A DNA stretch of 23,383 nucleotides, taken from positions 1-23,383 of IMG/VR virus record IMGVR_UViG_3300032245_001641, one strand, 5' to 3'. Below are positions 4,993 to 22,300 of the stretch, piece by piece. The notes beneath the pieces were generated by a model. It ran no database searches, was not told where the DNA came from, and saw nothing but the letters and a program-made list of their open reading frames with translations. A program made the translations under genes and the position numbers. The first letter of the stretch is position 1; each line of letters opens with the position of its first letter. This DNA is from a virus.

Positions 4993-5490
4993 TTATGCCG
5001 GAGGAGTAGAATTTAACTGGCCGACTTTTACTGCCCAGGCCAGTGAATTGGAGTCGTAGTTGTAAATGGTTAATGTGTGAGTCAATGTGCTGCCATTTGG
5101 AATTTGATATGACCAAGTGCCGTCAACTGGGAACGCATCTGCATTGGGTCCTCTTGATTGCGGCACACCATCAAGTGCCACATTGCTACGGCAATCAGCA
5201 ATTGGGCTGGCAGGCAGTACATCAAGCATGAATACTTGTTGCACATCTACGCTGTCACCGCCGGTGCATTGCACAGCCATTGGGAAATCACCGACCATAT
5301 TTTCATCAACATCAACCGAAAACAACACCTGCTGTGCTGTTGCGGCGCGATTAAAATCTGTGATATTTTTAGATGGCACTGTTCCAGTGTAGATTACAGT
5401 TCCATTTAATGTAGCAACAATTGATGCAACATTTTCAGTGTCATCTGCATAGTATCCTGTGCCCCAGAATTTCAAATTTTTTGTAGCCAT
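4993..5490 (-). CDS. 165-aa beta-rich protein, possible virion component
   Basis: 165 aa, no recognised family. The text alternates short hydrophobic strands and turns (NLKFWGTGYYADDTENVASI, then VIYTGTVPS; later TWSYQIPNGSTLTHTLTIYN), typical of a beta-sandwich such as an Ig-like or carbohydrate-binding domain. It has no signal peptide or membrane segment and two cysteines (C95, C115 by approximate count). It is a single-gene unit: T4-late-like boxes and GGGAG upstream, a strong terminator downstream. Late expression plus the fold impression suggest a structural or decoration protein. This is inference; nothing proves it is in the virion. Confidence 0.7.
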   Translation of the reverse strand: MATKNLKFWGTGYYADDTENVASIVATLNGTVIYTGTVPSKNITDFNRAATAQQVLFSVDVDENMVGDFPMAVQCTGGDSVDVQQVFMLDVLPASPIADCRSNVALDGVPQSRGPNADAFPVDGTWSYQIPNGSTLTHTLTIYNYDSNSLAWAVKVGQLNSTPPA

Positions 5491-5503: not shown

Positions 5504-5522
5504 CATTTATAAAGTATTTATC
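5504..5522 (-). promoter_or_regulatory. Candidate T4-late-type promoter boxes
   Basis: Minus strand reads GATAAATA (5522-5515) and TATAAATG (5511-5504), each one base off the T4 late box TATAAATA. They lie 14-32 nt before ATG 5490, with GGGAGA between, so a short-leader late mRNA is plausible. No -35 element is seen, as expected for late promoters. Confidence 0.55.
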
Positions 5523-6255
5523 ATTTCCAATGCTCTTTAATAACAGAATCTGTTAGATCCATGGGTTTTGGTTTTCCGTGAAATACCAACACTGCTGTTT
5601 GGTCTGTTATTGTTGTGCCGGTTCTGGGTTGCAGATGTTTTCTTCTAGTAAAATTGTACCCACCATCTAAACATTGCCAACGCCAGCTTTTGATGCGTTC
5701 TGTATCAAAAAATCTCATCTCAGCTGGCCCTACTGATTTGGTAATGTAATCTTGATCTCCAGGATATCTGTGTATTATGCTGTCCAATGACTGACTGCGA
5801 AATTCTTGCCATACTCGAGCATATTTTTCAGTATCCCACCACATTACACTGGTGTTGGCGCCGGTGTGTGCAGGCCTCCAAAGATATTTAAAATCTTTTA
5901 CTGTCCAAAAATAACGAGTGGGCTGTTGCCAAATCCAGTCTATGTTGCGAACTATCACAGTGTCAAGATCAAAATACAACATTGGTCCTGTATGGTGTTC
6001 GGGATTAAACAGTTGCATTTTGTACCACCAACCACGTTTGTGTCCACCGATCCCCCAGTCCTCAAGTTCATGTTTTATCATGTTTGGTGGTACTGATCTA
6101 GCGGCTTCAGTGTACACATGAAATCTAACGCCAGGAGAAATATGACGATTTAGCATGTTGTACAAACGCTCTACGTAGATCCAATCGTAGAGGTCTCCAT
6201 GTATCACACAGGCACAGTTTATTGGTCCAGTTGGTGTTGTATTCTTTTTAGCCAT
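5521..6255 (-). CDS. GT-A-type glycosyltransferase
   Basis: 244 aa. The pattern of a GT-A enzyme is clear: an N-terminal strand (CACVIHGDLYDWIYVERLYNM), MLYFDLDTVIV with the metal/nucleotide-sugar-binding DxD (DLD, 96-98), a later GDQDY (166-170), and a C-terminal VFHGKPKP (224-231) of the HxG.KP type that helps bind the nucleotide diphosphate. It would transfer a sugar from a nucleotide-sugar; donor and acceptor are unknown. The start at 6255 has AGAAGGACT upstream and lies 37 nt inside the end of the preceding GT-B-like gene, so the two are coupled. No signal peptide or membrane segment, so it is cytoplasmic. Confidence 0.8.
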   Translation of the reverse strand: MAKKNTTPTGPINCACVIHGDLYDWIYVERLYNMLNRHISPGVRFHVYTEAARSVPPNMIKHELEDWGIGGHKRGWWYKMQLFNPEHHTGPMLYFDLDTVIVRNIDWIWQQPTRYFWTVKDFKYLWRPAHTGANTSVMWWDTEKYARVWQEFRSQSLDSIIHRYPGDQDYITKSVGPAEMRFFDTERIKSWRWQCLDGGYNFTRRKHLQPRTGTTITDQTAVLVFHGKPKPMDLTDSVIKEHWK

Positions 6256-7070
6256 AGTCCTTCTCGTAATTCTTCAACTGTGTATTCAGTGTGGCATATC
6301 TGTGTTAGCCACAATGCTCTATCTATAGTATAAGGTTGTTCAATGTCAGGCATACCCACTGCCACAGGATATGCCAGGCTGCTGTGTGCCACAATGGGTC
6401 TACATCCTGCAATGCCTGCTTGAGTGCCTGGTCCTGAGTTGTGATTGACCACAGCATGACAGTTGAAATGCATGTCAAAACTGTCGTAAGTATTGGCCAC
6501 AGGCTGTGCAACTTCCATTGTGACATTGTTGGGCATATATGGCATACGTAATGGGCTACGAGGATGTGCTCGTATACGTATGGGACGATCAGTTGAATTT
6601 CGTAACAGTTGGATTTGTTCCAACACCCATGATTCCATGCTGCCAATGCCCGCAACTTGCAAACTGTTTCTATGTTGTGCGGCAATGATGATTTCTGGTC
6701 CTGGTGCAACCTGTGTGGCCAGGCTTATTTGCAACTTTCTAGGACGATCCCAATCCAAATTGTCATAATGACCATAATAGCCATCTCGAGTGATATGATT
6801 TACAGCCAGCTTCCAAGTCTGTCCACGATACAGCGCACCAATGTCTATCACAATCACCGGTTTGTTTTGCCTGCAATAGTGTTCATACACTGCTTGATTT
6901 GGCTTCATTCTACCATGCCACAGCACTGACCAAATCACTGCCGCGTCAGCGGTCATTGAGTTTTCTTGTGTTTGTATGCCTGCGGCTTGACAACAGTCCA
7001 GAAATGCACTCATTACTGGTTTACTGTTCAATGCACATTGGGCAGGAAAATAAGCTATGGTTTTTATCAC
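6219..7070 (-). CDS. GT-B-like surface-glycan transferase (paralogue 1)
   Basis: 283 aa from GTG 7070. The frame is open 12 codons further up, but that part overlaps the divergent gene, and VIKTIAYFPAQ looks like a true N-terminus. Motifs shared with four other proteins here: VIDIGALYRG (74-83), RIRAHPRSP (165-173) and VNHNSGPGTQAGIAGCRPIVA (about 208-228). The last resembles the nucleotide-sugar or CDP-alcohol site of capsule/teichoic transferases (S-ExxxxGxP pattern). The downstream GT-A gene overlaps it by 37 nt. The divergent neighbour starts 13 nt away, so any promoter must lie inside that gene. Substrate unknown; capsule-type or glycerophosphotransferase-type activity is possible. Confidence 0.7.
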   Translation of the reverse strand: MIKTIAYFPAQCALNSKPVMSAFLDCCQAAGIQTQENSMTADAAVIWSVLWHGRMKPNQAVYEHYCRQNKPVIVIDIGALYRGQTWKLAVNHITRDGYYGHYDNLDWDRPRKLQISLATQVAPGPEIIIAAQHRNSLQVAGIGSMESWVLEQIQLLRNSTDRPIRIRAHPRSPLRMPYMPNNVTMEVAQPVANTYDSFDMHFNCHAVVNHNSGPGTQAGIAGCRPIVAHSSLAYPVAVGMPDIEQPYTIDRALWLTQICHTEYTVEELREGLWLKRIQHQLDQ

Positions 7071-7078
7071 TGTAAATA
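7071..7078 (+). promoter_or_regulatory. T4-late-like box, leaderless start predicted
   Basis: TGTAAATA, one base off TATAAATA, ends 5 nt before ATG 7084. A T4 late box is normally followed by about 5 nt before +1, so the A of the ATG would be +1. Confidence 0.5.
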
Positions 7079-7083
7079 CGTTT

Positions 7084-7866
7084 ATGAAATACACTGTATG
7101 TACCACTTTTAACGCCGACGGTTACAAGACTTACGGCTCACGCATGATTGACACATTTTTACGCACTTGGCCTCAAGACATTGTGCTCAAAGTGTACACT
7201 GAAGGTTGTGATGTGACACAAACTGCACCCAATTTACAAGTACTGGATTTAGAACAAGTGAGTCCTGATCTTGTGGCATTCAAAAACAAATGGCGCAATG
7301 TGCCCAAGGCCAATGGAGACATTGGGCCTGGCAGTGAACGCAAGGCGTTTAAATGGCAAGCAGTACGCTTTGCTCACAAAGTTTACACTATATTTCATGC
7401 TGCTCGTACCTGCAACACTGAGTGGTTGATTTGGATGGATGCTGACATGGTTTGCCATAGTCCAATCACTGTGTCACGCATTGCTGAATTTTTTCCGGAC
7501 TCAAAGCATATTTGTTATGCTGGTCGTAGCAACAAATTCACTGAATGTGGATTGTATGGCATGCATTTAAGTGAGCCCGTTATTCAAAAGTTTCTCACTG
7601 AGTTTCAACGCATGTATGATGATGCAGAAAATGGTATTTTTAAACTGAGTGAATGGCACGACAGTTATGTGTTTGATGATGTCAAGGCTCGCAGTGACCT
7701 AGCAGAACTCAATTGGTCAGCAGGCCTAATCAATGGCGAAGGTCACCCACTGATCAATTGTGAGTGGGGTGCATACATTGACCACCTTAAAGGCAAACGC
7801 AAAGGCAGTGGTCGTAGCAAACTCAAAGACCTTGTGATTCAACGCACTGAAAAATACTGGCAATGA
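7084..7866 (+). CDS. GT-A-type glycosyltransferase
   Basis: 260 aa from ATG 7084; the frame is open 9 codons further up but that would cross the late-type box and the divergent start. The core WLIWMDADMVCHSPI carries the DxD motif (DAD, 119-121) after a GT-A-like N-terminal half (KYTVCTTFNADGYKTYGSRM). Later NWSAGLINGEGHPLINCEWG may form the acceptor side. The C-terminal tail is lysine/arginine-rich (KGKRKGSGRSKLKDL). First gene of the plus-strand module 7084-10085 and joined to the next gene by an ATGA overlap (7863-7866). Donor and acceptor unknown; transfer of a sugar to a late phage or cell-surface product is inferred from context. Confidence 0.75.
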   Translation: MKYTVCTTFNADGYKTYGSRMIDTFLRTWPQDIVLKVYTEGCDVTQTAPNLQVLDLEQVSPDLVAFKNKWRNVPKANGDIGPGSERKAFKWQAVRFAHKVYTIFHAARTCNTEWLIWMDADMVCHSPITVSRIAEFFPDSKHICYAGRSNKFTECGLYGMHLSEPVIQKFLTEFQRMYDDAENGIFKLSEWHDSYVFDDVKARSDLAELNWSAGLINGEGHPLINCEWGAYIDHLKGKRKGSGRSKLKDLVIQRTEKYWQ

Positions 7867-8666
7867 TATTTCTCAGCAAAAATGGTGACGACGAATACAT
7901 TGACATGTATGCACATGGGCTCGGGCTTGAGAGTACACCCTTGGAGTCATGGTGCTATGAGGACAGCACAGAACCACTCATGTTGCGTGGCATAATGAAA
8001 CACAAGATCATCAAACGGTGCTGGGCAGATAACAGACCATTTAGATACATGGACTCAGGGTACCTGGGCAATCGTCCCAGTCATAAAAATCCTCATGGAT
8101 GGAAACACTATCATCGCATTGTGCCCAACAACTTACAACATGATGCAGTAATACCACGTCCCAGTGATCGCTGGAACCAACTGGGACTAGAGGCAGCCAA
8201 CCGACGCTATGGCAGCAACATACTGATTGTTGCTCCTGACGAAAAGCCTTGTAAATTCTATGATATAGAACTAGAAGCATGGCTGGCAGAAACCACAGCC
8301 ACAATCCAACAACACACAGATAGACTCATTGTCATACGTGAGCGCAATCGGAGTCGCACTGATAGAAAAACCAATCGTGTAGAACATGCCTTGGATGATG
8401 TGCATGCTGTAGTAACGTTCAACTCAATAGCAGCCACAGAAGCCATCTTAGCAGGTGTGCCTGTGTTTGCTATGGCGCCCAGCAATGCTGCCAGGCCGGT
8501 AAGTAATACAGATTTAAGCCAAATAGACAATCCATGGTTTCCCGATCGAGACCAAGTGCTGGCCTGGGCATATCATTTGGCCTATGCTCAGTTTCACATA
8601 GATGAATTCAAAAACGGCTCAGCCGAACAAATACTTAAACAAACAGAGGAGATATTAAGTGCGTGA
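7863..8666 (+). CDS. GT-B-like surface-glycan transferase (paralogue 2)
   Basis: 267 aa, starting in an ATGA overlap with the GT-A gene. It aligns by eye along its length with the C-terminal half of the 550-aa fusion at 10984-12636. Matching landmarks: MLRGIMK, FRYMDSGYLGN (60-70), YHR-N (83-90), IPRPSDR (97-103), FYDIELEAWL (132-141), TDR (152-154), VTFNSIAATEAILAGVPVF (184-202) and AYAQFHIDEFKNGSA. The VTFNS-EA-GVP segment is the likely donor-binding loop of a GT-B fold. It probably works with the preceding GT-A enzyme, since the other copy has both parts in one chain. Substrate unknown. Confidence 0.7.
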   Translation: MIFLSKNGDDEYIDMYAHGLGLESTPLESWCYEDSTEPLMLRGIMKHKIIKRCWADNRPFRYMDSGYLGNRPSHKNPHGWKHYHRIVPNNLQHDAVIPRPSDRWNQLGLEAANRRYGSNILIVAPDEKPCKFYDIELEAWLAETTATIQQHTDRLIVIRERNRSRTDRKTNRVEHALDDVHAVVTFNSIAATEAILAGVPVFAMAPSNAARPVSNTDLSQIDNPWFPDRDQVLAWAYHLAYAQFHIDEFKNGSAEQILKQTEEILSA

Positions 8667-9309
8667 ATATCAAGGGTGGTGGTTCCCAGACGTTGAATCA
8701 CATTTTCCAAAGATGCTGAAAAAAAGCATAGACAAAGGTGGTCCTGCTGAGTATCAATACCAAGTGCGTGATCGCAGTTTAACACATGCCAAGCGTCGTG
8801 GTGTGGCCCTGGACGTTGGTGCCAATGTGGGCCTGTGGAGTCGTAGCCTTTGCAAGAACTTCAATACAGTGTTGGCATTTGAACCTGTGGCCATGTTTCG
8901 CGAGTGCTTGATTAAAAATGTATCTGCAGATAACTTGCAAGTAAAAGACTTTGCATTGGGCGATAGACGTACCAAGGCCACAATGATCATCACTGAAGGC
9001 AATACTGGTCATACACACATTGATCCTGCCACATTAGGGCAAGGTGATACTGAAGTATACCGACTGGATGATTTAGATTTGGATGAAGTAGACTATATCA
9101 AAATGGATTGCGAAGGCTATGAATATCGTATCTTGCAAGGTGCTGAACAGACCATAAAGAGATGTAGACCTGTTGTTGTGGTAGAACAAAAACCGCACGA
9201 TGCCTACAGTGATCAGTATGGGCAACATGCTGCCATTGAACTATTAAAATCTTGGGGCATGGTCAGGCTAGATCAGGTCAAAGACGATTGGATCATGGGG
9301 TGGCAATAA
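8659..9309 (+). CDS. FkbM-family methyltransferase
   Basis: 216 aa from GTG 8659, overlapping the previous stop by 8 nt. SAM-binding motif I is LDVGANVGLW (51-60), followed by VLAFEPV (71-77), in which the acidic residue would contact the SAM ribose. The diagnostic FkbM stretch DYIKMDCEGYE is at 145-155. FkbM-type enzymes O-methylate sugars, polyketides or polysaccharide ends. Placed between two GT-B-like genes in the same plus-strand module, it most likely methylates the glycan made here, for example as a cap. That assignment is inference; the family call is strong. Confidence 0.88.
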   Translation: MREYQGWWFPDVESHFPKMLKKSIDKGGPAEYQYQVRDRSLTHAKRRGVALDVGANVGLWSRSLCKNFNTVLAFEPVAMFRECLIKNVSADNLQVKDFALGDRRTKATMIITEGNTGHTHIDPATLGQGDTEVYRLDDLDLDEVDYIKMDCEGYEYRILQGAEQTIKRCRPVVVVEQKPHDAYSDQYGQHAAIELLKSWGMVRLDQVKDDWIMGWQ

Positions 9310-10085
9310 AATATGCATGGTCACCAGAAGTCAAAGGCGAGTTTGAAACTTGGAGTCTGGTACCTTGGCAGCGGCAAGGACTAAAAACATTTGATCGTTT
9401 GAATCAGATACCACAAGACCATGTGTTGGTTGTGAGCCATTTTGCGCCATGGTGGTCGCCACTCAAAGAATGGATTGCCAGTGGTCGTCCCTGGATTGAA
9501 ATTGAATACGGATATTGGGGACTGGATACTCCGCGTCGAGCCACACGCAGGGTCACCTACTGCGGACATCACAACATGAACCTACGCCCTAGACCTTACA
9601 GCAGGGCTATGTTGTTTCCCGCACCTGTGCAACAAGAATGGCAACAGAGACCTGGCGAATATGTGTTGGTACCCATGCCCATAAATGAGCTGTTAGTTGA
9701 ACGTCGGGGCATGAACATATCCGAGTGGTGTGCGATGATAAAAACAGAAATCAGCAAGTACTGGTCTGGTCCTATAGTATGGCGCAAAAAGGCTGGGGAG
9801 AAAGCATTGCGATTTCAGCATTTTCAAAATCAACTGTCTCGAGCACATGCTGTGGTTGGAGAACGTACCATGGCCTGTGTGGAGGCTGTGCTGTCAGGCA
9901 TACCTGCATATACTGTGGATGCCAGCATGACCACATTGCTCATGGGCGGCGTAGAAAATTTGGCCAATATACAATACCCCGATCGAGCTGACTGGTGGGA
10001 TCATATTGCATGGAGTCAGTTCCACGTTGACGAATTTGCCAAAGGCAATATTGCAGAGCTTGTGGAGTTATACCAAATACGGTAA
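9300..10085 (+). CDS. GT-B-like surface-glycan transferase (paralogue 3)
   Basis: 261 aa from GTG 9300, overlapping the FkbM stop by 10 nt. The frame is open 16 codons further up, but VAIKYAWSPE looks like a proper N-terminus. Shared family landmarks: WIEIEYGYWG (65-74), RVTYCGHHN (84-92), VVGERTMACVEAVLSGIPAY (about 185-204) and IAWSQFHVDEFAKGN (236-250), the last nearly the same as in paralogue 2. The N-terminal VLVVSHFAPWW is Rossmann-like. Last gene of the plus module; its 3' end overlaps the convergent gene by 18 nt with no terminator between. Same caution on substrate as its relatives. Confidence 0.7.
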   Translation: MAIKYAWSPEVKGEFETWSLVPWQRQGLKTFDRLNQIPQDHVLVVSHFAPWWSPLKEWIASGRPWIEIEYGYWGLDTPRRATRRVTYCGHHNMNLRPRPYSRAMLFPAPVQQEWQQRPGEYVLVPMPINELLVERRGMNISEWCAMIKTEISKYWSGPIVWRKKAGEKALRFQHFQNQLSRAHAVVGERTMACVEAVLSGIPAYTVDASMTTLLMGGVENLANIQYPDRADWWDHIAWSQFHVDEFAKGNIAELVELYQIR

Positions 10086-10991
10086 AAACTTTTGATAAAT
10101 GCGGCCTGCTTGTGCATCTTCATCGCTCCAGTGTGCGGATGCTAGATCATAGACCCATTGTTCTCTAGCAAAGGTATTGGGTGTTTCGATCTTGGAAATG
10201 TCTTGGTTGGCGACTGTCCAGCTCACACAACTTGAATCATCCACAAACACTGGTATGCCTTCACACACTGCTGCCACGCTGGCACTGCTGTTAAAAAACA
10301 CTGCTGAATGTGCCCCTTGCAGATTTTCAAACAAAGAACTTTGTGTGGGTTCGAGTATGACAACATTGTGTTGATTTTGTTTGGTTGTATACTGTGCAAA
10401 ATCTTGCATATTGTACTGTCCTGGGTGAGGGCGGACATAAATCTGTCTTGAACTCACTGTTCTAATTTGCTGAATCTTTTCATTCAGCCATTGGATAGGA
10501 TTCAAAGTTTTCATGGCAAAACCGCCATCTCGTTGCATACAAATCAAAATATATCCTGCATGGTTGTTGCGAACAGGTTTTAATTGTACACCCAACTGTT
10601 GACTTATTTCTGTCCATTTACCAGCATCACTATTGCGGTTGGCATACTCAGCACGATCATAAAATGGTCCGTTGAGGCTGTATCGCAAATAACTGCCATG
10701 TTCGTCGAGATATTTCCAGCATGATGCATCTATGCACATGGTGTGAAGTTTTCGTTGGCGTTGTTCTGAGATGATCTCTTTTCGCAATGCAATATTACGG
10801 CCGCCAGTGTTTGTAGTAGCCCAACCCAACATCACTGCCAATCGACTGGGGGTATAACGATGTTCCCATTCTACTACCACAGTGTGGCCCACAGCACGAA
10901 CACCATCAGCAAAACTTTCCAGGCACTGTATTTTCCTAGAATGCTTTTGTGGGTTTGCCACACTACTAACGTAAACTACTACGTCAACCAC
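10068..10991 (-). CDS. GT-B-like surface-glycan transferase (paralogue 4)
   Basis: 307 aa from GTG 10991. The open frame extends to 11156, but the extra 55 codons lie inside the fusion gene and read as out-of-frame text, while GTG 10991 has GGAG 11 nt upstream and gives VVDVVVYVSSVANPQKHSRK, a good first strand. Family landmarks: LDEHGSYLRYSLN (95-107), ILICMQRDGG (148-157), YVRPHPGQY (185-193) and VFFNSSASVAAVCEGIPVFV (231-250). RPHP is typical of capsule/teichoic-type GT-B enzymes. The start overlaps the stop of the fusion gene by 8 nt, and the 3' end overlaps the convergent paralogue 3 by 18 nt. Confidence 0.7.
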   Translation of the reverse strand: MVDVVVYVSSVANPQKHSRKIQCLESFADGVRAVGHTVVVEWEHRYTPSRLAVMLGWATTNTGGRNIALRKEIISEQRQRKLHTMCIDASCWKYLDEHGSYLRYSLNGPFYDRAEYANRNSDAGKWTEISQQLGVQLKPVRNNHAGYILICMQRDGGFAMKTLNPIQWLNEKIQQIRTVSSRQIYVRPHPGQYNMQDFAQYTTKQNQHNVVILEPTQSSLFENLQGAHSAVFFNSSASVAAVCEGIPVFVDDSSCVSWTVANQDISKIETPNTFAREQWVYDLASAHWSDEDAQAGRIYQKFLPYLV

Positions 10992-12636
10992 CTTGCAAGA
11001 TTCTCCAGGCAGTGCCATCACGCATTTCTGGCTCGGTGAATTGACAATAAGCAATGTGTCTACACCATGCATGTATCTCTTCCAGGCTGGGTTTTTTAAT
11101 ATATTCAATCTCGCTAATGGAGTTACTGCATAATGCCGCGGCTGCGTTGGGACCAAGTGTGATAGCGGGTTTGCCGTATATCAATGCTTCGCCGGCAGCA
11201 ATACTAGAAAAGGTCACCAGACAATAAATGTCTTGACTCAAAGCTGCTTCCATGCTGTCATCACTGGTTCTAGCGGTGCGACCTGGTTTGCGGCGAACTA
11301 TGACTTCTCGATCTGTGTTGGCTGAGATTTCGGCCAGGGTTTGCTCTAGCCATTGTTCCAGGTCAATGTCGTACAAGTTCAACAACTTCTGACTGGGAGG
11401 TGCCAACAAGATTTTGCCGCCGTCTGCACGACACTTGGCAGGTTTGATGCCTGTGCGTTCAAATCTGTCGCCCGGACGTTCAATTATGGGACCAAAGTTT
11501 TGTACATCGTTTAGGGTCACACGATGGTATGTTTTCTTTTTGCCATTGCCAAAGTATCCAGTATCAATGTAATAAAAGTCTCGGCCACGTTCACGACACG
11601 CTCGCATTTCTTTGCGCTTGGTGATACCACGCAGGATAACTGGCACCATGCTGGGTTCGCTTTTGCTCCAGGTGGTTATTTGGCCGCCTGCTCCCATGGT
11701 AAAACTCTGTAGTACTGGATCAAACATTTTTCCCTTTTCTTGGTATCTAAATTCGCTGTCAATGGCATGCACGGCCTGATTGTCCAGGGCCTGTATTTTC
11801 TCAGTCAATGACTCCAGGCCTAGACCATAGTAGTCACCTGCTGGGTCCACGCGATACTTGACAAGGTCTCTAAATAGTTCCTGCATTTCTGGTGGCACCA
11901 TGTCAAATTCATGGCGTGGCAACGGGGCAGATTCTACTTTTTGTTTATCTGTTGATATTCTTTGTTCACAATAGTTGGTTAGAAGTTTTTCTAAATGCCA
12001 TTCTTCCGAAAAATTTCCTTTGTCGGCAAACTCATGAAAGCAAGGAGTTCCCAAGGTGTAATGCACTAACTTGGCGTCAGGGTTCCCGTCGTATTCAATG
12101 TCCAACCAGTTCCACTCCGGCGGCAGTTCACCAATGCGCTCATCGTCCAGCCAAGTGAATCTATGCAGTTCAGCACCGGTTGATTGTTGTACAAACTCTG
12201 GTGTTAGTCGGCGATTGGGATAACTGTTACAGTTCCATAAGATCACACTTGACCAGTTCTTGCGTGGATAGTCTTCATTCTTGCTGCCAAGATATTTCAC
12301 AGGCATTCGTGTTTGGTAGTCATGTTTGACCACCATGACATCTTTGGTGAAATCTCTGGAGTCCCATAATTCCACAATATCGCCTCGCAAAATCATGTCA
12401 CCGTCGATGAAGATGGCCCAACCTTGGTAGTCCATCAAGTGTGGCACAAGGAATCTACTGTAGATAAATTGATTGCTACCGTCGGTGTGTATTTCATCGT
12501 AGTCTTTGAACAAGTTCAACGCCACAGGAATAATAGCCACAGGCTGACTGGCATGTCTAATAATGCTATTCACACATGTGTGATATGCAATGGCTTCTCT
12601 AGGGTCGTAGCCCACAAACACAGGAATAGGTTTCAT
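10984..12636 (-). CDS. Two-domain glycosyltransferase: GT-A fused to GT-B-like (paralogue 5)
   Basis: 550 aa. Residues 1-225 are a GT8-like GT-A domain: PVFVGYDPREAIAYHTCVNS at the start, WAIFIDGDMIL with DxD (DGD, 78-80), NWSSVILWNC (127-136) and LVHYTLGTPCF (190-200). Residues about 260-550 match paralogue 2: VILRGITKRKE (333-343), YYIDTGYFGNG (355-365), YHRVTLN (370-376), IERPGDR (385-391), LYDIDLEQWL (421-430), TDR (441-443), VTFSSIAAGEALIYGKPA (474-491) and IAYCQFTEPEMRDGTAWRIL. The linker 226-260 is charged. It is probably a bifunctional enzyme adding two units in turn. ATGA overlap with the nucleotidyltransferase gene upstream (12633-12636) ties it to precursor supply. Confidence 0.8.
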   Translation of the reverse strand: MKPIPVFVGYDPREAIAYHTCVNSIIRHASQPVAIIPVALNLFKDYDEIHTDGSNQFIYSRFLVPHLMDYQGWAIFIDGDMILRGDIVELWDSRDFTKDVMVVKHDYQTRMPVKYLGSKNEDYPRKNWSSVILWNCNSYPNRRLTPEFVQQSTGAELHRFTWLDDERIGELPPEWNWLDIEYDGNPDAKLVHYTLGTPCFHEFADKGNFSEEWHLEKLLTNYCEQRISTDKQKVESAPLPRHEFDMVPPEMQELFRDLVKYRVDPAGDYYGLGLESLTEKIQALDNQAVHAIDSEFRYQEKGKMFDPVLQSFTMGAGGQITTWSKSEPSMVPVILRGITKRKEMRACRERGRDFYYIDTGYFGNGKKKTYHRVTLNDVQNFGPIIERPGDRFERTGIKPAKCRADGGKILLAPPSQKLLNLYDIDLEQWLEQTLAEISANTDREVIVRRKPGRTARTSDDSMEAALSQDIYCLVTFSSIAAGEALIYGKPAITLGPNAAAALCSNSISEIEYIKKPSLEEIHAWCRHIAYCQFTEPEMRDGTAWRILQGG

Positions 12637-13397
12637 CTGCGTTCAATATCTTCCTCAACACAGCGTTCACCGTATTGTATTTCAATCAACTTTAGTGGTT
12701 GGTCAGTTTCGTTGCACAGCTGATGCCACTCATTGAGTTTGATCCAGCAGGATTGATGTCGTCCGGGGCTGGCCATCAAGTCATAATCTGTGCTGTGCGG
12801 ATCAACTGTGTACACTGTGGCTTCACCTTCGGCCACAAACCAAAATTCTGCACGTTGTTCATGTCGTTGCATGCTCAAACAAGTATGAGGCAGCACAGTG
12901 AGTTCTTTGAGTTTGGTATTGGCGCCTACTTCGTGCAACACACGATAGTGTCCCCAGGCACGATCCGTTCGAGGTGTTTTCCATTCTGTGAGAATCCATG
13001 AACTTGAATTCATTTTGTGTTCGCCGCCCACACCAAAGCGAAAGTCCACATCATCAAACACCATTTCTGGTATGTTATCGGCTGTGCGATCTCCACCATT
13101 GGCAAATATAAACTTGGTACCTGGAAACATATAGTAGTTACGGGCAACACGAATAGCGTCTATTGCTGATCCATCGTCATCATTGAATTCAATTACTTTG
13201 TCTACCACACGTAAATTTTCAATGATAGCCCGGCGTTCAGTGGCAGGCATAAATGGACGACCTTTTTTGCGTGTGAGCCACTCGTCACTGTTGATCCCAA
13301 CTACAAGTCTGTCTCCCAAGGCCTTGGCAGCTTCAAAGTAGGCAATATGCCCAGAATGTAGCGGATCAAATCCGCCTGTGACTATTACTATTTTCAT
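12633..13397 (-). CDS. Nucleotidyltransferase-cupin fusion (sugar/alcohol-phosphate activation)
   Basis: 254 aa. Residues 1-140 are a cytidylyl/adenylyltransferase of the HxGH superfamily: VTGGFDPLHSGHIAYFEAAK with HSGH (14-17), GINSDEW, ER-II, and NSSSW (130-134) in the place of the ISSTRI-type motif. Residues about 147-253 are a cupin like the C-terminus of type II phosphomannose isomerase/ManC: LPHTCLSMQRHEQRAEFWFV (169-188), EWHQLCNETDQPLKLIEIQYG and EEDIER. The protein could both isomerise and activate a sugar- or polyol-phosphate to a nucleotide donor for the neighbouring transferases. First gene of the minus module; a perfect late box lies 5 nt before the ATG. The exact nucleotide and sugar cannot be told. 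Confidence 0.8.
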   Translation of the reverse strand: MKIVIVTGGFDPLHSGHIAYFEAAKALGDRLVVGINSDEWLTRKKGRPFMPATERRAIIENLRVVDKVIEFNDDDGSAIDAIRVARNYYMFPGTKFIFANGGDRTADNIPEMVFDDVDFRFGVGGEHKMNSSSWILTEWKTPRTDRAWGHYRVLHEVGANTKLKELTVLPHTCLSMQRHEQRAEFWFVAEGEATVYTVDPHSTDYDLMASPGRHQSCWIKLNEWHQLCNETDQPLKLIEIQYGERCVEEDIERR

Positions 13398-13402
13398 GTT
13401 GA

Positions 13403-13410
13403 TATTTATA
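13403..13410 (-). promoter_or_regulatory. T4-late promoter box TATAAATA, leaderless start predicted
   Basis: Perfect TATAAATA on the minus strand (13410-13403), followed by TCAAC and then ATG 13397. The 5-nt gap puts +1 at the A of the ATG. No Shine-Dalgarno sequence is present. Confidence 0.65.
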
Positions 13411-13436
13411 TGTGCAGTTTTGTGCTAAGTAAATCA

Positions 13437-14042
13437 ATGTTCACCGACCAATACTATGAAACGTTAAAACGCAGCCAAGAGTTCCAGCAACAAAGTATAA
13501 ACTGGGGAGGATATGGCAGTTATCAATACATCGAACAACTGCGTTCAATAGTGCAAAAGTACCGTTGCAAAACCATGTTAGATTATGGTTGTGGCAAAGG
13601 ATTGCAATATCCCCAAGACGAAAACAATTTTGCGCAACTGATTGGAATAAAGGATTATGTCATGCATGATCCAGCATACGAAAAACATGCTGATTTGCCG
13701 CCAGGCACATGGGACTTGGTTGTCTGCTTGGATGTGTTGCCATTCATACCCGAATCAGATATAGATGCAGTGCTAGAACTCATGTTGAGTCGTTGCAATA
13801 AGATATGTGTAATTGCACTTCAGCCCATTCCTGAAGCCAAAAAAGCTCGTAGCAAGAAACCTTTTGTATGTGTGCATGATCAGGCCTGGTGGCAGGACAA
13901 ATTATCGCATGAAAAAATTCATTTGATCTGGTACAAGTCAGACAAGCCATTTGATTTGCCAGCTTTTATTGCAAGTAATCCAGTGGGCGGGTTGTCTGCT
14001 TGGCTTAGATTTAAAAATTTTATTAAATCAAAGTTTTTCTAA
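13437..14042 (+). CDS. Class I SAM-dependent methyltransferase (divergent)
   Basis: 201 aa from ATG 13437. An ATG 27 nt upstream (13410) is in frame but lies on the minus-strand late box, so the later start is preferred. Motif I TMLDYGCGKG (46-55) and later TWDLVVCLDVLPFIPE fit a class I methyltransferase. A tail with AWWQDKLSHEKIHLIWY follows. The protein shares its layout with the next gene, which lies on the opposite strand and has AWWMDRV at the same place, so they are probably paralogues. The two genes converge and overlap by 15 nt at their 3' ends. Acceptor unknown; glycan or protein methylation is possible. Confidence 0.7.
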   Translation: MFTDQYYETLKRSQEFQQQSINWGGYGSYQYIEQLRSIVQKYRCKTMLDYGCGKGLQYPQDENNFAQLIGIKDYVMHDPAYEKHADLPPGTWDLVVCLDVLPFIPESDIDAVLELMLSRCNKICVIALQPIPEAKKARSKKPFVCVHDQAWWQDKLSHEKIHLIWYKSDKPFDLPAFIASNPVGGLSAWLRFKNFIKSKFF

Positions 14043-14546
14043 TATCAGTCTGAGTTCAGGTTTTGGGGCGATACCTTTGTGTGGTTTGCCACCATAGTCT
14101 ACAGCCTCCCACCAAGTGACATGGCATTGATCAAACTGTTGTTGCACCCGATCCATCCACCACGCACAGTTTTCCACAATTAAATGTGCATTGCGTCCGT
14201 CGGGTAGATGCTTCTTTGCAGGATAACAAGCAATGATCAAAAAGGCTGCACGTTGGAACTTGCTTTGCATGAGCTTTAGTGACTCATTTAATAATTCGGG
14301 TTCAAAGTGTTCAATCACGTCACAGCTGACAAGACAATCATAGGTACCAACAGGAACGACATTGTAATCAGGGTTACCAGGATCGTAGCCTCCCAATGCT
14401 CGAATATTGGGAAACTTTGCCGCCACACGATCAAGAAGAAATCCATTTGCGCACCCCCAATCTATCAGGCTCCTGGTCTGATACTCGGTGATAAAATTGT
14501 GTACCAAGTCGTACTTGGGCAAAAGTTCTTTGTATATTCCGGTCAT
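14028..14546 (-). CDS. Class I SAM-dependent methyltransferase
   Basis: 172 aa. SLIDWGCANGF (26-36) is motif I, GGYDPGNPDY follows as the acidic second strand, and YDCLVSCDVIEHFEP is the typical post-motif region of Methyltransf_23-like enzymes. The short C-terminal part (CAWWMDRVQQQFDQCHVTWW) is aromatic-rich and similar to the convergent neighbour. ATGA overlap (14543-14546) with the preceding methyltransferase shows it is the last gene of the long operon that begins with gp32. The unusual company with recombination genes does not reveal a substrate. Confidence 0.75.
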   Translation of the reverse strand: MTGIYKELLPKYDLVHNFITEYQTRSLIDWGCANGFLLDRVAAKFPNIRALGGYDPGNPDYNVVPVGTYDCLVSCDVIEHFEPELLNESLKLMQSKFQRAAFLIIACYPAKKHLPDGRNAHLIVENCAWWMDRVQQQFDQCHVTWWEAVDYGGKPHKGIAPKPELRLILEKL

Positions 14547-15298
14547 GATACCATCATTGTGGCCAAGCTTCGATCAATCCAAGGCACTATTAAATCTCTT
14601 TGCTGTAGATATCCATGGGCATACACACTTGGATCTGCAGATTCAGGCAAAAGTTTCATCTCAGACAACTGTTGCCAAGTAGTGGTTTTTGGATCCAAAG
14701 GTGCATGTTCACTCTTGTACACGATGGCATTTATCCAGGGATCTGCTGGTGCTTGTTTAAAAAATCCTGTGCGGCAATCCCATCCTGCTGTGGCCAACAT
14801 GTAAATCAAGCTGACCATGGTGTAGTGATAGTAACAACCCGAATTCAAATAGAAATCTAAATTTCGTTTGTTGATGCGTTGGGTCGCTGGTACTATCAAC
14901 ACCAACATAGCACCCGGACTGGCCATAGACCACCAGTTGCTTAGTGTGCCTACGGGATTGATTGCGTATTGAAAAGCATCATGACACCAAAGCACATCAA
15001 ATCCACCTTTGGGAGCATGTATTGGCTTTTCAAAATCTCCTGGTTGGTATATTATATTTTTGTATTTTCTTGCCATGGAAAGACTGTCCACTATGTCCAC
15101 TCCCACACAGTTGATATTCAATGGGTCAGGAACATCGTCTCTTGTGGTTCTTGTGGCCCACCATTTTAGGTCCTCGCCGGAGCCACAACCCAAGTCAACC
15201 ACAGTTTTGATACTCATCATGAAGTCATCATATTCAAACAATTGATTCAATGTTTGCAAACTGTGTTGATGACTTTCGTCAGCATTGAGAAACGTCAT
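14543..15298 (-). CDS. Class I SAM-dependent methyltransferase
   Basis: 251 aa. Motif I is VVDLGCGSGED (33-43), then CVGVDIVDSLSMARKY, GDFEKPI and FDVLWCHDAFQYAINPVGTL, a standard class I methyltransferase core of the UbiE/Methyltransf_11 type. The C-terminal third (from about 150) is less conserved-looking and aromatic-rich. It overlaps uvsY by ATGA (15295-15298) and the next methyltransferase by ATGA (14543-14546). Co-translation with uvsY suggests expression with the recombination genes, whatever its target. DNA, protein and small-molecule substrates all remain possible; no DNA N6/C5 methylase motif (DPPY, PCQ) is seen. Confidence 0.78.
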   Translation of the reverse strand: MTFLNADESHQHSLQTLNQLFEYDDFMMSIKTVVDLGCGSGEDLKWWATRTTRDDVPDPLNINCVGVDIVDSLSMARKYKNIIYQPGDFEKPIHAPKGGFDVLWCHDAFQYAINPVGTLSNWWSMASPGAMLVLIVPATQRINKRNLDFYLNSGCYYHYTMVSLIYMLATAGWDCRTGFFKQAPADPWINAIVYKSEHAPLDPKTTTWQQLSEMKLLPESADPSVYAHGYLQQRDLIVPWIDRSLATMMVS

Positions 15299-15747
15299 AG
15301 TTGAATGTCTTCCATACCAGCAGCTCGCAGTCTTACCACATGTCCCAACATAAAGTTTTTGCTTTCCATGGCTTTCATGATGCCGAGGAATCGATTTCTC
15401 AACAACGCCACTTCATTGATAATGGTTTCAAAGTCAATGACTTCATCTTCGCCATCCACATATTTTTCAGCATCACGGCTAGTCAACGCACGAGCATATC
15501 CTTCAAGATATTTTTGAAAGTGTTTGCGGCGTATCTTTCTCAGTTGTATGTTGAGATGATTCAACACTGCTTCTATCTCTTGCAGTTGATTGAATCTGTG
15601 CTCGGTGATGCCAGGTAAGGCTGTGATATTTTTTTCAATCAGCCCACCAATTTTACAGTCAAATTTGGCTTGATTTAATTCATTCTCATAATGGGCTATG
15701 AAGTCAGGTATGTTGCCTAAGTCGGCAACTACTTTGCTGTACCACAT
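15295..15747 (-). CDS. uvsY: UvsY-like recombination mediator
   Basis: 150 aa, close to T4 UvsY (137 aa). In T4, UvsY loads UvsX on gp32-covered ssDNA. The central helix LRKIRRKHFQKYLEGYARAL is strongly basic (about 72-91) and is followed by TSRDAEKYVDGEDEV and by FLGIMKAMESKNFMLGHVVRLRAAGME. The last segment matches the UvsY pattern of a long helix with AI-SRGF-IKH-. It starts with TGATG coupling to the 87-aa acidic gene and has no Shine-Dalgarno sequence of its own. Location directly after uvsX supports the call. Confidence is moderate to high because UvsY proteins diverge quickly. Confidence 0.8.
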   Translation of the reverse strand: MWYSKVVADLGNIPDFIAHYENELNQAKFDCKIGGLIEKNITALPGITEHRFNQLQEIEAVLNHLNIQLRKIRRKHFQKYLEGYARALTSRDAEKYVDGEDEVIDFETIINEVALLRNRFLGIMKAMESKNFMLGHVVRLRAAGMEDIQL

Positions 15748-18274: not shown

Positions 18275-19288
18275 CTATTTTATTTTTTTTAAAATTTCTG
18301 GACCAAGCTCTGTGGGTCCTTGTTGTTTGGTTATTTTTTTGTGCAAATGAGCAAGGTATCGTCCAGACGCAAAGTGCTCATAGTTGTAGTCAATGGTTTC
18401 TTGTTCAATGCGATACAGCTCATTCCAGTTGTAAGGACTCAACTGGCTGAACTTGGAAATCATATCCATCAAAGTGATCAATCGTGTCACTGGATTTTGA
18501 ACGTTGTCAAAATGATAATCAAAAATTTTGTCATAGGGGCGAAATCCAAGCCAGTGACTTACATGATTGTGCCATCCTGGTTGAGCATAGGCCAAAAACA
18601 AATTACCAGCGGCCACGCTGTAAAAAAACTTTTCTGTCACAAAAGGGTAATAACCAGTGGCTACAGTTTCGCTTACTAGATGCAAAAAACTTGTGTCGAT
18701 TCGCGGAGAAAGGAATTCTTGATTTCGGCGATGATCTCTGTCAGCACGACCAAACTCAACTTGCAAGGTTGAAAAGTCATTAATGTTATTTTGAACAAAA
18801 AACATTTCGTACCATTTTGCTGGTGGACCAATTAGATCATGCAATTGTCCTGCCAGACTATCAGAATCAAATGTAAAAACTTTACTACAAGTATCAGGAT
18901 TAAAATATCCATACGAGTTCAGTGCTGAAGTCAACAATATGCGACCGATGTGTCTGGAATTATTAAAACTGCAAAGAAATTTTGTAATGTCTTTGGGTTT
19001 TTTAAATTCAGAATCTATTCTAGAGATATTATTCTCACAAAACCAAGTGTTAATATCAAATTTAATTTCTAACTTAGGATAGTTATTTTTTATATCAAAG
19101 TTGGGGATGTACTCACAATAAACTGTTCTCCGACTATCAGTCTTTGATTGTATTGCTGTGAGTATTGAAGACGTTGCGTTTGCAAAAAAACCATCCTGGT
19201 GATCAATCACCGTGATTGGAGCTGAATCAGCGAGACTTGTTAAATCAATGTTGTATTGTCCGTTAATATTTGTGCGTATTATTGTCAT
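18275..19288 (-). CDS. GT10-like (fucosyltransferase-type) glycosyltransferase
   Basis: 337 aa from ATG 19288. An in-frame ATG at 19306 lies in the stem of a terminator hairpin and is unlikely to be used, although no Shine-Dalgarno sequence is clear for either. The stretch SFLHLVSETVATGYYPFVTE followed by KFFYSVAAGNLFLA (about 200-234) matches the donor-binding region of alpha-1,3-fucosyltransferase-like GT-B enzymes (SxxxxxETxxxxxYxTEKxxxxLxxGxxP). Then come a WLGF segment and DYHFDNVQNP. The N-terminal half is AT-rich in coding sequence and unfamiliar. It is a single gene between a terminator and the gp32 promoter. Likely adds a deoxyhexose or similar sugar to a glycan; the donor is uncertain. 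Confidence 0.7.
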   Translation of the reverse strand: MTIIRTNINGQYNIDLTSLADSAPITVIDHQDGFFANATSSILTAIQSKTDSRRTVYCEYIPNFDIKNNYPKLEIKFDINTWFCENNISRIDSEFKKPKDITKFLCSFNNSRHIGRILLTSALNSYGYFNPDTCSKVFTFDSDSLAGQLHDLIGPPAKWYEMFFVQNNINDFSTLQVEFGRADRDHRRNQEFLSPRIDTSFLHLVSETVATGYYPFVTEKFFYSVAAGNLFLAYAQPGWHNHVSHWLGFRPYDKIFDYHFDNVQNPVTRLITLMDMISKFSQLSPYNWNELYRIEQETIDYNYEHFASGRYLAHLHKKITKQQGPTELGPEILKKIK

Positions 19289-19292
19289 GTCA

Positions 19293-19323
19293 AAAGAAAA
19301 AAGCATGCCATTGAGGCATGCTT
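19293..19323 (-). terminator. Rho-independent terminator after the long structural-type gene
   Basis: Nine-bp stem AAGCATGCC/GGCATGCTT with loop TCAAT on the minus strand, followed by TTTTTTCTTTTG. It lies 29 nt past the stop at 19353. Confidence 0.85.
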
Positions 19324-19352: not shown

Positions 19353-22300
19353 TTATCTGAGCAAAGCCAGTGATTTTATTCTGGCCAGCAGTGCATCACC
19401 TTCTTGTGGTTTGAAATCAACACCTTCGTCAACTTCATGCCCACGTGGACTACTGCCCATTTGAGGACCAAATTCATCAGGCTCGGGGCCAAAGCCGCGA
19501 ACATCAACTCTTAAAGGAAGCGGGTCTAGGTCAGTGCCTTCAATGTCATTGCTGTTTGCCACTGGATGTGTGGTTGCTCCCAACGGATCTAAATCAGTGC
19601 CTTGGATGTCGTGCTGATGTGGTACTGGGGATATCTGAATTATTTGATCGCTGCGGTCTTGTACTGGATGTACTTCCACTCCTGCGAGATCTTGCAATCT
19701 TGATAATTCTTCTTCCAGTCCAAATGACATGCCGCCGCATTCAGCCAGTCCATGTTGTGGACAGTATTCGCCTTCCATGGTATAGTTACATTCAGCCATG
19801 TGGTTGACGTGTTGTGCCATATAACTTTCATCAATGCCAATGTCAGCGGCAAAACGATCACTAATCCATTCGCCAGGATCGCCAGTTCTGGCTTTCCGTG
19901 TACCATAAGGCATGTCATCAAAGTAGTAATCATATAGTACGTCATACAATGCATCACTCATTTCACCAGTTTGGGTAAAATCTTTGACGTCACGCTTGTA
20001 TGTGTCTACGATGTGATCCAAGGTGCTACCAGTTGAATCTGTCAACACACCTTCGTTCACAGCAACGCCGGCATTTTTCAACACATCGCGCAGGGAATCC
20101 AGGCTTTCATCTATGGCGTCAGGCATGTTTCTACTTTCAGGATAAACATCACCAGCATCTGGTATTTTTGGCGTTGTTGGCTTGTACACACCGCCGGGTG
20201 TCCAATCACCGGCATCTGGTATCTTGTCTGTGGCCGAAGAAGATTTTGGCCCAAATTTCTCGCCAGCATTGCCTTTGAGGAAGTCACTGAACTCTTTTTC
20301 AGTTTGTGTTCGTTGTATTGCATCTTTCATGCTCTCACCAGGCTTGACTGTGATTTTGGGCTTGGCAGTTTTGCTAAGGTCGCCCTTGAAATTGGGGTCG
20401 TTTCTGCCGCGCATCACTGCTGGTCGTTCATAATTGTCTGGCAGTTTGGGTGTGCTTCCTGCAGATGTCACTGTTGGTGGACGATCTGAGGTGCCAACTC
20501 GCAAGGCTCCTGGTTGAGTACTTTGTAATCCGCCCAGGGGTGCTGCCTGTGTGGTTGTGGGTTGTGTTGTAGGACGATTAAATGAGCCGGCCGTCGCTGG
20601 ATTAAAGCCGGCGCCGCTGCCGGAAAGCTCTTTACTGATATCTTTGGCTCTGTTGAATGATGATCGTAGTCCGCCCCAAGACCCAGTACTACCACCTCCT
20701 CCGCCCAGTGCTACGCCGCCTTCCAATGGTGGTAAGTCTGTTCCTCGATCCCTGCTCCATCTAGGATCAGCTTCATCAAGATCACTGACGGTCATGGTCT
20801 GAGATTTGCCAGTTGTGGGATCAGTGGCTGTTGTGGTATTTGTATAAGTTGAAGTTGGTTTGCCGCCAACATCTGTAGTATTCATAGTCGACTTGGTACT
20901 GATATTGGTGTACGGATCGTTTGGTTTTACAGGAGCCTGCTGTTGCCAACTACCACTGGTTGGGTTGTACTTCATTTGTGCGCCTTGTGTAGTGGTAAAA
21001 TTTTGTCCTGGTGTTGGTGTGCCTTCTTTAACACCTTCAGGATCGCCTCCCGGTGCTTTGATGGTGCCCTTGGGATCAGCTTGCCAAGTACCGCCTTTGT
21101 TAACACCCATGGCTGAACCTTTTGTGGTGTCGGGGGTCAAAGGCTTGTAATCTTTGCCCCAACCTGGACTGGCTGTTCTAGGGGTGCTTGGAGCACCTTC
21201 GGGATCACCGCTGGGTGCTTTTACATTTGGTTGGCCTGCTTTGGGAGGTGAGGCTGACCAGGTGTCGCCTTGAATGCTGCCTTCTTTTACATTTGGCTCA
21301 CCAGGTTTAACAACTACCTGGCCTTTGTCTATTGTTGCGTTGACTCGCCCAGTGCTAGATGTAGTGAACGTTTGACCAGGCCCTGTGTACACAGTAGTCA
21401 ACCTGCCTTTGGGGCTGCTGTCATCGTCGCCTTCGTCAATTTGATCTCCTGGTTCGACGTCTATTCTATCTTTGTCTATTGTTGCTCTGACTCGTCCAGT
21501 GCTAGATGTAGTAAACGTTTGGCCCGGGCCTGTATACACGGTACTCAATCTACCTTTGGTACTGTTGTCTTTGGTACTGTTGTCTTTGGTGTCAGTGTCT
21601 TTGGTGTTGCTTTTTTTAGAACCACTGTCTTTTTTAGCTGTGTTGGCTTCGCTTAGGCCTGCAAGACGCAACACATCATTCAATGCGTTGATAGGTTGGG
21701 TGGTGGCAAATGACACACTTTCTGCCACGGTGCTACGAGTTTTGTTTTTCAATTGTGCCAACTGTTGATACACTGATGGCTTCTGATCAGGAACGTTTAA
21801 TAGATCAGATTTTCCAGGAGCATTGTCTGGAGCAGATGGTGGAACTTCTACTCCAGTGGATGGTTCCACTCTGAAGTTAGGTAATTTTACGCTTGGGCTT
21901 GATCCCAATTTTGCCCTTGGTAACGAATAATCTGTTCCTGGTGTCGGTTCAGTAGGCGCAGTAGGTACATCGGCTTTTGCAGGCGCAGTAGGTACATCAG
22001 CTGTTGCAGGCGCAGTAGCGGCCGCCGGAGCGATTCCTGCACGTTGTCTTAGAAATCCCATTGGGTCTGCTGCATACTGTAAGTCAGTAAGTTTGTCTTG
22101 CATGTATTGTTGATTGCGTTTTTCTAAGTTAGCATCAATTTCAGATTTACGTGCAGTGTATCCTGCTTCTGCATCTTTGCGCAAGGCTGGTAATTTGGCC
22201 AGGTCGGCAGGAGTATTGAGACCATATTTTTGACTTAAGAATCGTTTGCGCATTGCTTCTTCGTGACTGTGTGCTCCTTTGCTTAACAAATCTTCTAACT

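Follow-up and report, generated by a model that had tools for sequence, protein, structure and literature searches.

A conserved two-strand glycosylation island with five GT-B paralogues and late promoter motifs in jumbo T4-like phages, proposed to act on a virion protein

The window analyzed here is an entire IMG/VR contig of 23,383 bases from a T4-like phage that encodes UvsW, UvsX, UvsY, and a gp32-type protein. Its UvsX is nearest to those of the jumbo phages Sinorhizobium phage Phosso, Cronobacter GAP32, and Pectobacterium CBB (66-69% identity), and contigs carrying relatives of the island described below reach 364 kb; the source lineage is a jumbo T4-like phage. Between uvsY (15295-15747) and uvsW lies an island encoding eight glycosyltransferase domains (five GT-B paralogues and three GT-A domains), an FkbM methyltransferase, and an HldE-like nucleotidyltransferase-cupin. 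The positions of its open reading frames agree with those of a preliminary description, except for the start of protein G, which we place at the ATG at 7084 instead of 7057, as both its conserved N-terminal sequence (MKYTVCTTFNADGY) and the spacing TAAATA-N5-ATG require. The features, with the letters used for the proteins, are as follows.

5521 to 6255, minus strand: E, GT-A glycosyltransferase with a DxD motif (phrog_1962 glycosyltransferase, E 4e-22; DxD in 50/50 relatives)
6219 to 7070, minus strand: F, GT-B paralogue of the HP type with a GTG start at 7070 (profile matches to H, J, K, and the C-half of L at 96.9-99.9%; RXHP in 52/52 relatives)
7073 to 7078, plus strand: putative TAAATA late-promoter core of the G-H-I-J operon, 5 nt ahead of the ATG at 7084 (exactly 5 nt in 45/59 relatives)
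7084 to 7866, plus strand: G, GT-A glycosyltransferase with a DxD motif (start moved from 7057; Glycos_transf_2 E 2e-4, weak and below cut-off; DxD in 59/59 relatives)
7863 to 8666, plus strand: H, GT-B paralogue with Arg/Lys at the His position (BLASTP, profiles, and motif; weak DUF6716 match in 41/48 relatives)
8659 to 9309, plus strand: I, FkbM-family methyltransferase (Pfam Methyltransf_21, E 8e-20)
9300 to 10085, plus strand: J, GT-B paralogue with Lys at the His position (BLASTP, profiles, and motif; present in 9/29 islands)
10068 to 10991, minus strand: K, GT-B paralogue of the HP type (AlphaFold model near retaining beta-Kdo transferases)
10984 to 12636, minus strand: L, GT8/GT24-like GT-A half (L-N, residues 1 to ~230) fused to a GT-B half (L-C, ~300 to 550)
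12633 to 13397, minus strand: M, HldE-like nucleotidyltransferase fused to a mannose-6-phosphate-isomerase-type cupin
13403 to 13410, minus strand: putative late promoter TATAAATA of the M-L-K operon, 5 nt ahead of the ATG of M (TAAATA exactly 5 nt ahead in 44/49 relatives)
13410 to 15298: variable flank with the methyltransferases N (13410-14042, plus), O (14028-14546, minus), and P (14543-15298, minus)

In the flank, N and O have weak Pfam and PHROGs matches and P has a clear one. A DNA-level search of phage records with the island sequence returned no match. No hydrophobic segment was found in the island proteins, so that the island holds nothing resembling a flippase, an exporter, or a lipid-anchored initiator.

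The composition of the island was compared across 29 distinct islands, delimited from uvsY to an AAA gene or uvsW and distinguished by sequence and not by sampling site. The genes for M, L-N, L-C, K, I, H, G, F, and E were each found in 26-29 of them; J was found in 9 and the flank genes N, O, and P in 15, 24, and 1, respectively, counts of absence that depend on most of the relatives' records being fragments. G and F lie on opposite strands in 28/29 islands, and by these comparisons the two-strand island is kept, almost unchanged, as a single functional block. The gp32-uvsX-uvsY...uvsW backbone is also present in Phosso and GAP32, with different genes in between, which places the island in a variable site. 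Matches on bacterial or archaeal genome contigs numbered only three (L195, L196, and L197, from Neomarinimicrobiota and Euryarchaeota MAGs), carrying a marine version of the island with co-directional genes; bacterial copies of the island were rejected, as all three contigs carry uvsW and are phage contigs binned into MAGs.

The kinship of the five GT-B proteins, which had been recognized by eye, was examined at three levels. BLASTP within the window, with E-values that refer to a database of 25 window proteins, matched H to L-C (37% identity, E 1e-48), to J (5e-15), to K (2e-9), and to F (7e-8). This was further strengthened by a comparison of family profiles built from 21-63 relatives each, in which all ten pairs among F, H, J, K, and L-C aligned at 96.9-100% probability and the control profiles (E, G, L-N, and S, a protein encoded elsewhere in the window) reached at most 1.3% against them; by their profiles the five are true paralogues, far above chance. 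The AlphaFold2 model of K (55 sequences) had a pLDDT of 93.6 and a pTM of 0.90, and the top 15 PDB neighbors of this model in Foldseek were all retaining beta-Kdo transferases of GT-B fold (KpsC, KrkA, and WbbB; E 6e-7). Instead of unrelated folds or the lack of any GT-B fold, we thus obtained a predicted GT-B fold, with its two Rossmann-like domains, for K directly, from AlphaFold and Foldseek, and for F, H, J, and L-C by profile homology.

Conventional family searches with the same proteins gave little. Sequence-profile searches of the PDB with K and with L returned no match, none of the five GT-Bs exceeded the cut-off of a Pfam model, and the relatives of H matched DUF6716 (PF20471, "putative glycosyltransferase") weakly, at 18 bits against a cut-off of 27. 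Capsule_synth (PF05159) had no match among the window proteins, and a search for PF05159 references in 100 genomes of one phylum gave 2 matches, not enough for profiles to be compared. A tree of 72 sequences, in which the outgroup phages have long branches and unsure positions, places the K and F copies from marine contigs within the K and F clades, which makes the duplications behind K and F older than the split from these contigs. Among the best seven BFVD matches to K, four are proteins of Tetraselmis virus 1, a giant virus of a green alga (A0A2P0VNK4, A0A2P0VP54, A0A2P0VP74, and A0A2P0VP72; TM-score ~0.7), nearer to K in fold than any solved structure. These "capsule polysaccharide biosynthesis" proteins, mostly ~300 residues long, have a K-like predicted fold at 15-18% identity, which suggests that the GT-B family of K is common to phages and giant viruses.

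The donor-site motifs divide the five paralogues. In sialyltransferases and Kdo transferases, the (K/R)XHP motif contacts the CMP moiety of the donor (PMC12887879); it is invariant in K (63/63 relatives) and in F (52/52). At the His position of this motif, L-C and J have Lys (51/51 and 21/21), and H has Arg (48 relatives) or Lys (3). Retention of the HP motif makes a CMP-linked donor probable for K and F, and the Lys/Arg in place of His suggests that the donor class has changed, with nucleotide-diphosphate sugars as the probable donors of H, J, and L-C; the proposed split is based on this single motif. The retaining beta-Kdo transferases KpsC (GT107), WbbB (GT99), and KrkA (GT140) resemble K in overall fold, and K and F share with them both (K/R)XHP and the Gln of QXXXD, whereas the island GT-Bs are shorter (~260-310 residues) and the HP motif is missing from H, J, and L-C. 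By the definition of QXXXD with a nucleophilic Asp, taken from PMC12887879, membership of K and F in these families (GT99/107/140) is ruled out despite the Kdo-transferase-like fold of K, since the +4 position is Gly in K (62/63) and Ser in F (52/52) and the nucleophile is absent. The CMP-Kdo/CMP-sialate synthetase family PF02348 was absent from 14 related records, and a CMP-sugar donor could be supplied by the host.

The three GT-A domains proposed in the preliminary description are borne out by their DxD motifs, conserved in L-N (48/49 relatives) as in E and G, and the N-half of L matches GT8/GT24 structures. The full-length model of L has a pTM of 0.50, which leaves the relative placement of its domains uncertain. 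The window and some relatives have L as a fusion; most relatives encode the two halves as separate open reading frames that abut or slightly overlap in another frame. Recurrence of the fusion in several contigs makes a sequencing error unlikely, and the fusion suggests that the two halves act jointly, in successive steps. The methyltransferase I was rightly assigned to the FkbM type, and the nucleotidyltransferase-cupin fusion of M was recovered by Pfam as CTP_transf_like (3e-15) and MannoseP_isomer (1e-19). The best NCBIfam model for M was TIGR02199 (HldE domain II), at 74 bits below the equivalog cut-off of 181.5; M is by these matches related to the heptose-1-P adenylyltransferase HldE/RfaE2, with a specificity that the score does not fix. 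The earlier reading of activation, transfer, and capping as one block holds insofar as the enzymes are present and the core genes recur together. It does not extend to synthesis of a complete glycan: M is the sole gene within the island that could activate a sugar, PF02348 is missing as noted above, and epimerases, where present in relatives, are located elsewhere in the genome.

The two operons, headed by M and G, carry a putative signal for late transcription. The T4 late promoter TATAAATA is positioned at -13 to -6 (PMC1524935). An exact search for it in the window alone gave 1 site against 0.42 expected and looked insignificant, but anchoring on the conserved, corrected start codons of relatives reversed this verdict: TAAATA ends exactly 5 nt ahead of the ATG in 44/49 relatives of M and 45/59 of G, against ~2 expected from shuffling, and in 0 for uvsX, uvsY, and gp32 and 1/27 for uvsW as control genes. 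A predicted T4-type late-promoter motif therefore heads both operons, in support of the earlier claim of late expression, which would follow from it. In the relative G005, the core also precedes two genes called virion structural by PHROGs and genes that resemble tail sheath and tail tube by eye.

The spacing itself points to an unusual type of transcript. In the relatives G005 (L210-L220) and G006 (L224-L234), core-to-ATG distances are bimodal, with a short class of 4-8 nt (25 and 22 genes, a Shine-Dalgarno-like motif in 0 and 1 of them) and a long class of 15-30 nt (27 and 24 genes, mostly with such a motif); both window sites (7073-7086 and 13395-13410) have the short spacing. Unrelated AT-rich control hexamers placed 0-6 genes in the short class, which in T4 and GAP32 held 4 and 0 genes, with no excess over their controls. 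Under the T4 late-promoter spacing rule, transcription of the short class would start at the start codon, which suggests leaderless late mRNAs in the island lineage and perhaps in Mosig as well (10 genes).

We propose, with a confidence that is moderate at best, that the island is a late-expressed glycosylation module whose acceptor is most likely a virion protein; its acceptor, donors, linkage order, and late expression are all read from the gene content and its context. M would activate a sugar phosphate, the soluble GT-A and GT-B enzymes would assemble a short glycan one linkage after another, the methyltransferase I would methylate it, and the acceptor would be a co-produced virion protein such as a tail fiber, sheath, or capsid protein. 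The presence of soluble enzymes only, the late promoter motifs, and the lack of a hydroxymethylpyrimidine synthase together favor a late, cytosolic, non-DNA acceptor. Virion protein is placed first because in CcrColossus and CcrSC kindred modules are flanked by tail genes and lysis genes and in podovirus ct7QV12 a GT-B is encoded beside the large terminase gene, and further support comes from the TAAATA core that the island head genes have in common with the virion structural genes of G005. The Caulobacter phages CcrColossus and CcrSC carry a GT-A/GT-B pair homologous to L-N/L-C, another GT-B, and an O-type methyltransferase; unlike the phage of the window they are siphophages, and unlike the island their modules adjoin tail and lysis genes. 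The stretch examined in them held no homologue of G, E, M, or the FkbM methyltransferase I. Glycans on capsid and tail tube subunits are known from mycobacteriophages (Freeman et al. 2023, as cited in PMC12619734), a likeness in function to the role proposed here. Four core glycosyltransferases are described for moraphages in a paper that does not mention uvsX (PMC12619734). Downstream of E, a small Thr-rich protein (4993-5490, minus strand) occurs in very few relatives and has no family match; it is a candidate acceptor and may have a structural or decoration role.

The main rival, which we consider rather unlikely, is that during infection the enzymes alter the LPS O-chain, the core, or the capsule at the host surface so that competing phages cannot adsorb, a form of superinfection exclusion. 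Modification of the host O-chain is how the GT8-rich clusters of related pelagimyophages have been interpreted (PMC7029224), and this weakens the case for the virion. The island and these clusters, including that of Mosig EXVC030M, have a GT8-like GT-A, an rfaE-like gene, and a T4-like phage background in common; the pelagimyophage genes are scattered or lie in a hypervariable host-recognition region, whereas the island is a fixed uvsY-uvsW block with five GT-B paralogues. The cultured marine phage Mosig has homologues of G, L-N, and E, two FkbM-type methyltransferases, and two GT-Bs, and its module has ribonucleotide reductase and RuvC genes nearby and no annotated tail genes beside it, which again counts against a virion acceptor, as does the frequent action of GT8-like and KpsC-like enzymes on lipid-linked cell-envelope glycans. 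The solved structures closest to K (KpsC, WbbB, and KrkA) produce capsule and O-antigen, and M is nearest to the LPS heptose enzyme HldE. Phage exclusion functions are usually early, however, and both operon heads carry late promoter motifs; the island also lacks a membrane, flippase, or export gene, and the kindred modules of Caulobacter phages are linked to tail genes. Between virion and cell surface, the sequence evidence leans to the virion.

It is improbable that the glycan goes to some other acceptor made or modified late, be it a small molecule, a protein of the host, or a polymer that is secreted; the data leave the acceptor unfixed, but the repeated linkage of kindred modules to tail genes and the promoter core shared with virion structural genes speak against it. 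The alpha- and beta-glucosyltransferases of T4 are GT-B enzymes as well. Glycosylation of phage DNA bases in the manner of these enzymes, for which the multi-sugar DNA modification reported in phages offers a precedent (Pyle et al. 2024, as cited in PMC12619734), is nevertheless very improbable, since the thymidylate synthase/dCMP hydroxymethylase family PF00303 was found in 0/15 related records, some >340 kb (T4, GAP32, and Phosso were positive as controls), no Pfam match to the T4 glucosyltransferases was obtained, and the T4 enzymes were absent from the 50 best Foldseek folds for K.

Returning to virion glycosylation, a bolder form of the proposal, which we regard as doubtful in its entirety, would join the separate observations: a virion-glycosylation locus driven by late promoters and with leaderless head-gene transcripts, its five GT-Bs drawn from a viral family that has relatives by fold among giant algal viruses and that split into CMP-donor (His) and diphosphate-donor (Lys/Arg) branches through a change of one active-site residue. 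Phage glycosyltransferases are usually listed one by one without a function; here, many uncultured freshwater phages have one conserved module in common, for which the enzyme family is defined and donor-site signatures and late promoter motifs are at hand, and the kindred modules of the cultured Mosig, CcrColossus, and CcrSC make a virion sugar coating testable. The GT-B family additionally provides a natural experiment on the way a single GT-B scaffold may switch its nucleotide donor.

Three minus-strand genes outside the island merit mention. The 1341-residue, repeat-bearing, Thr/Pro/Gly-rich protein at 19353-23378 adjoins the replication genes and has no Pfam or PHROGs match. A Twitch-domain radical SAM protein at 1285-2409 (NF033640, 299 bits, above cut-off) takes varying positions around the island in relatives. 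Protein S (18275-19306), without a Pfam match, contains "YPFVTEKFFYSVAAGNLFLAY", which by eye resembles the GT10 fucosyltransferase signature; it is likely a further glycosyltransferase, and its homologues lie near gp32/uvsX in a few relatives.
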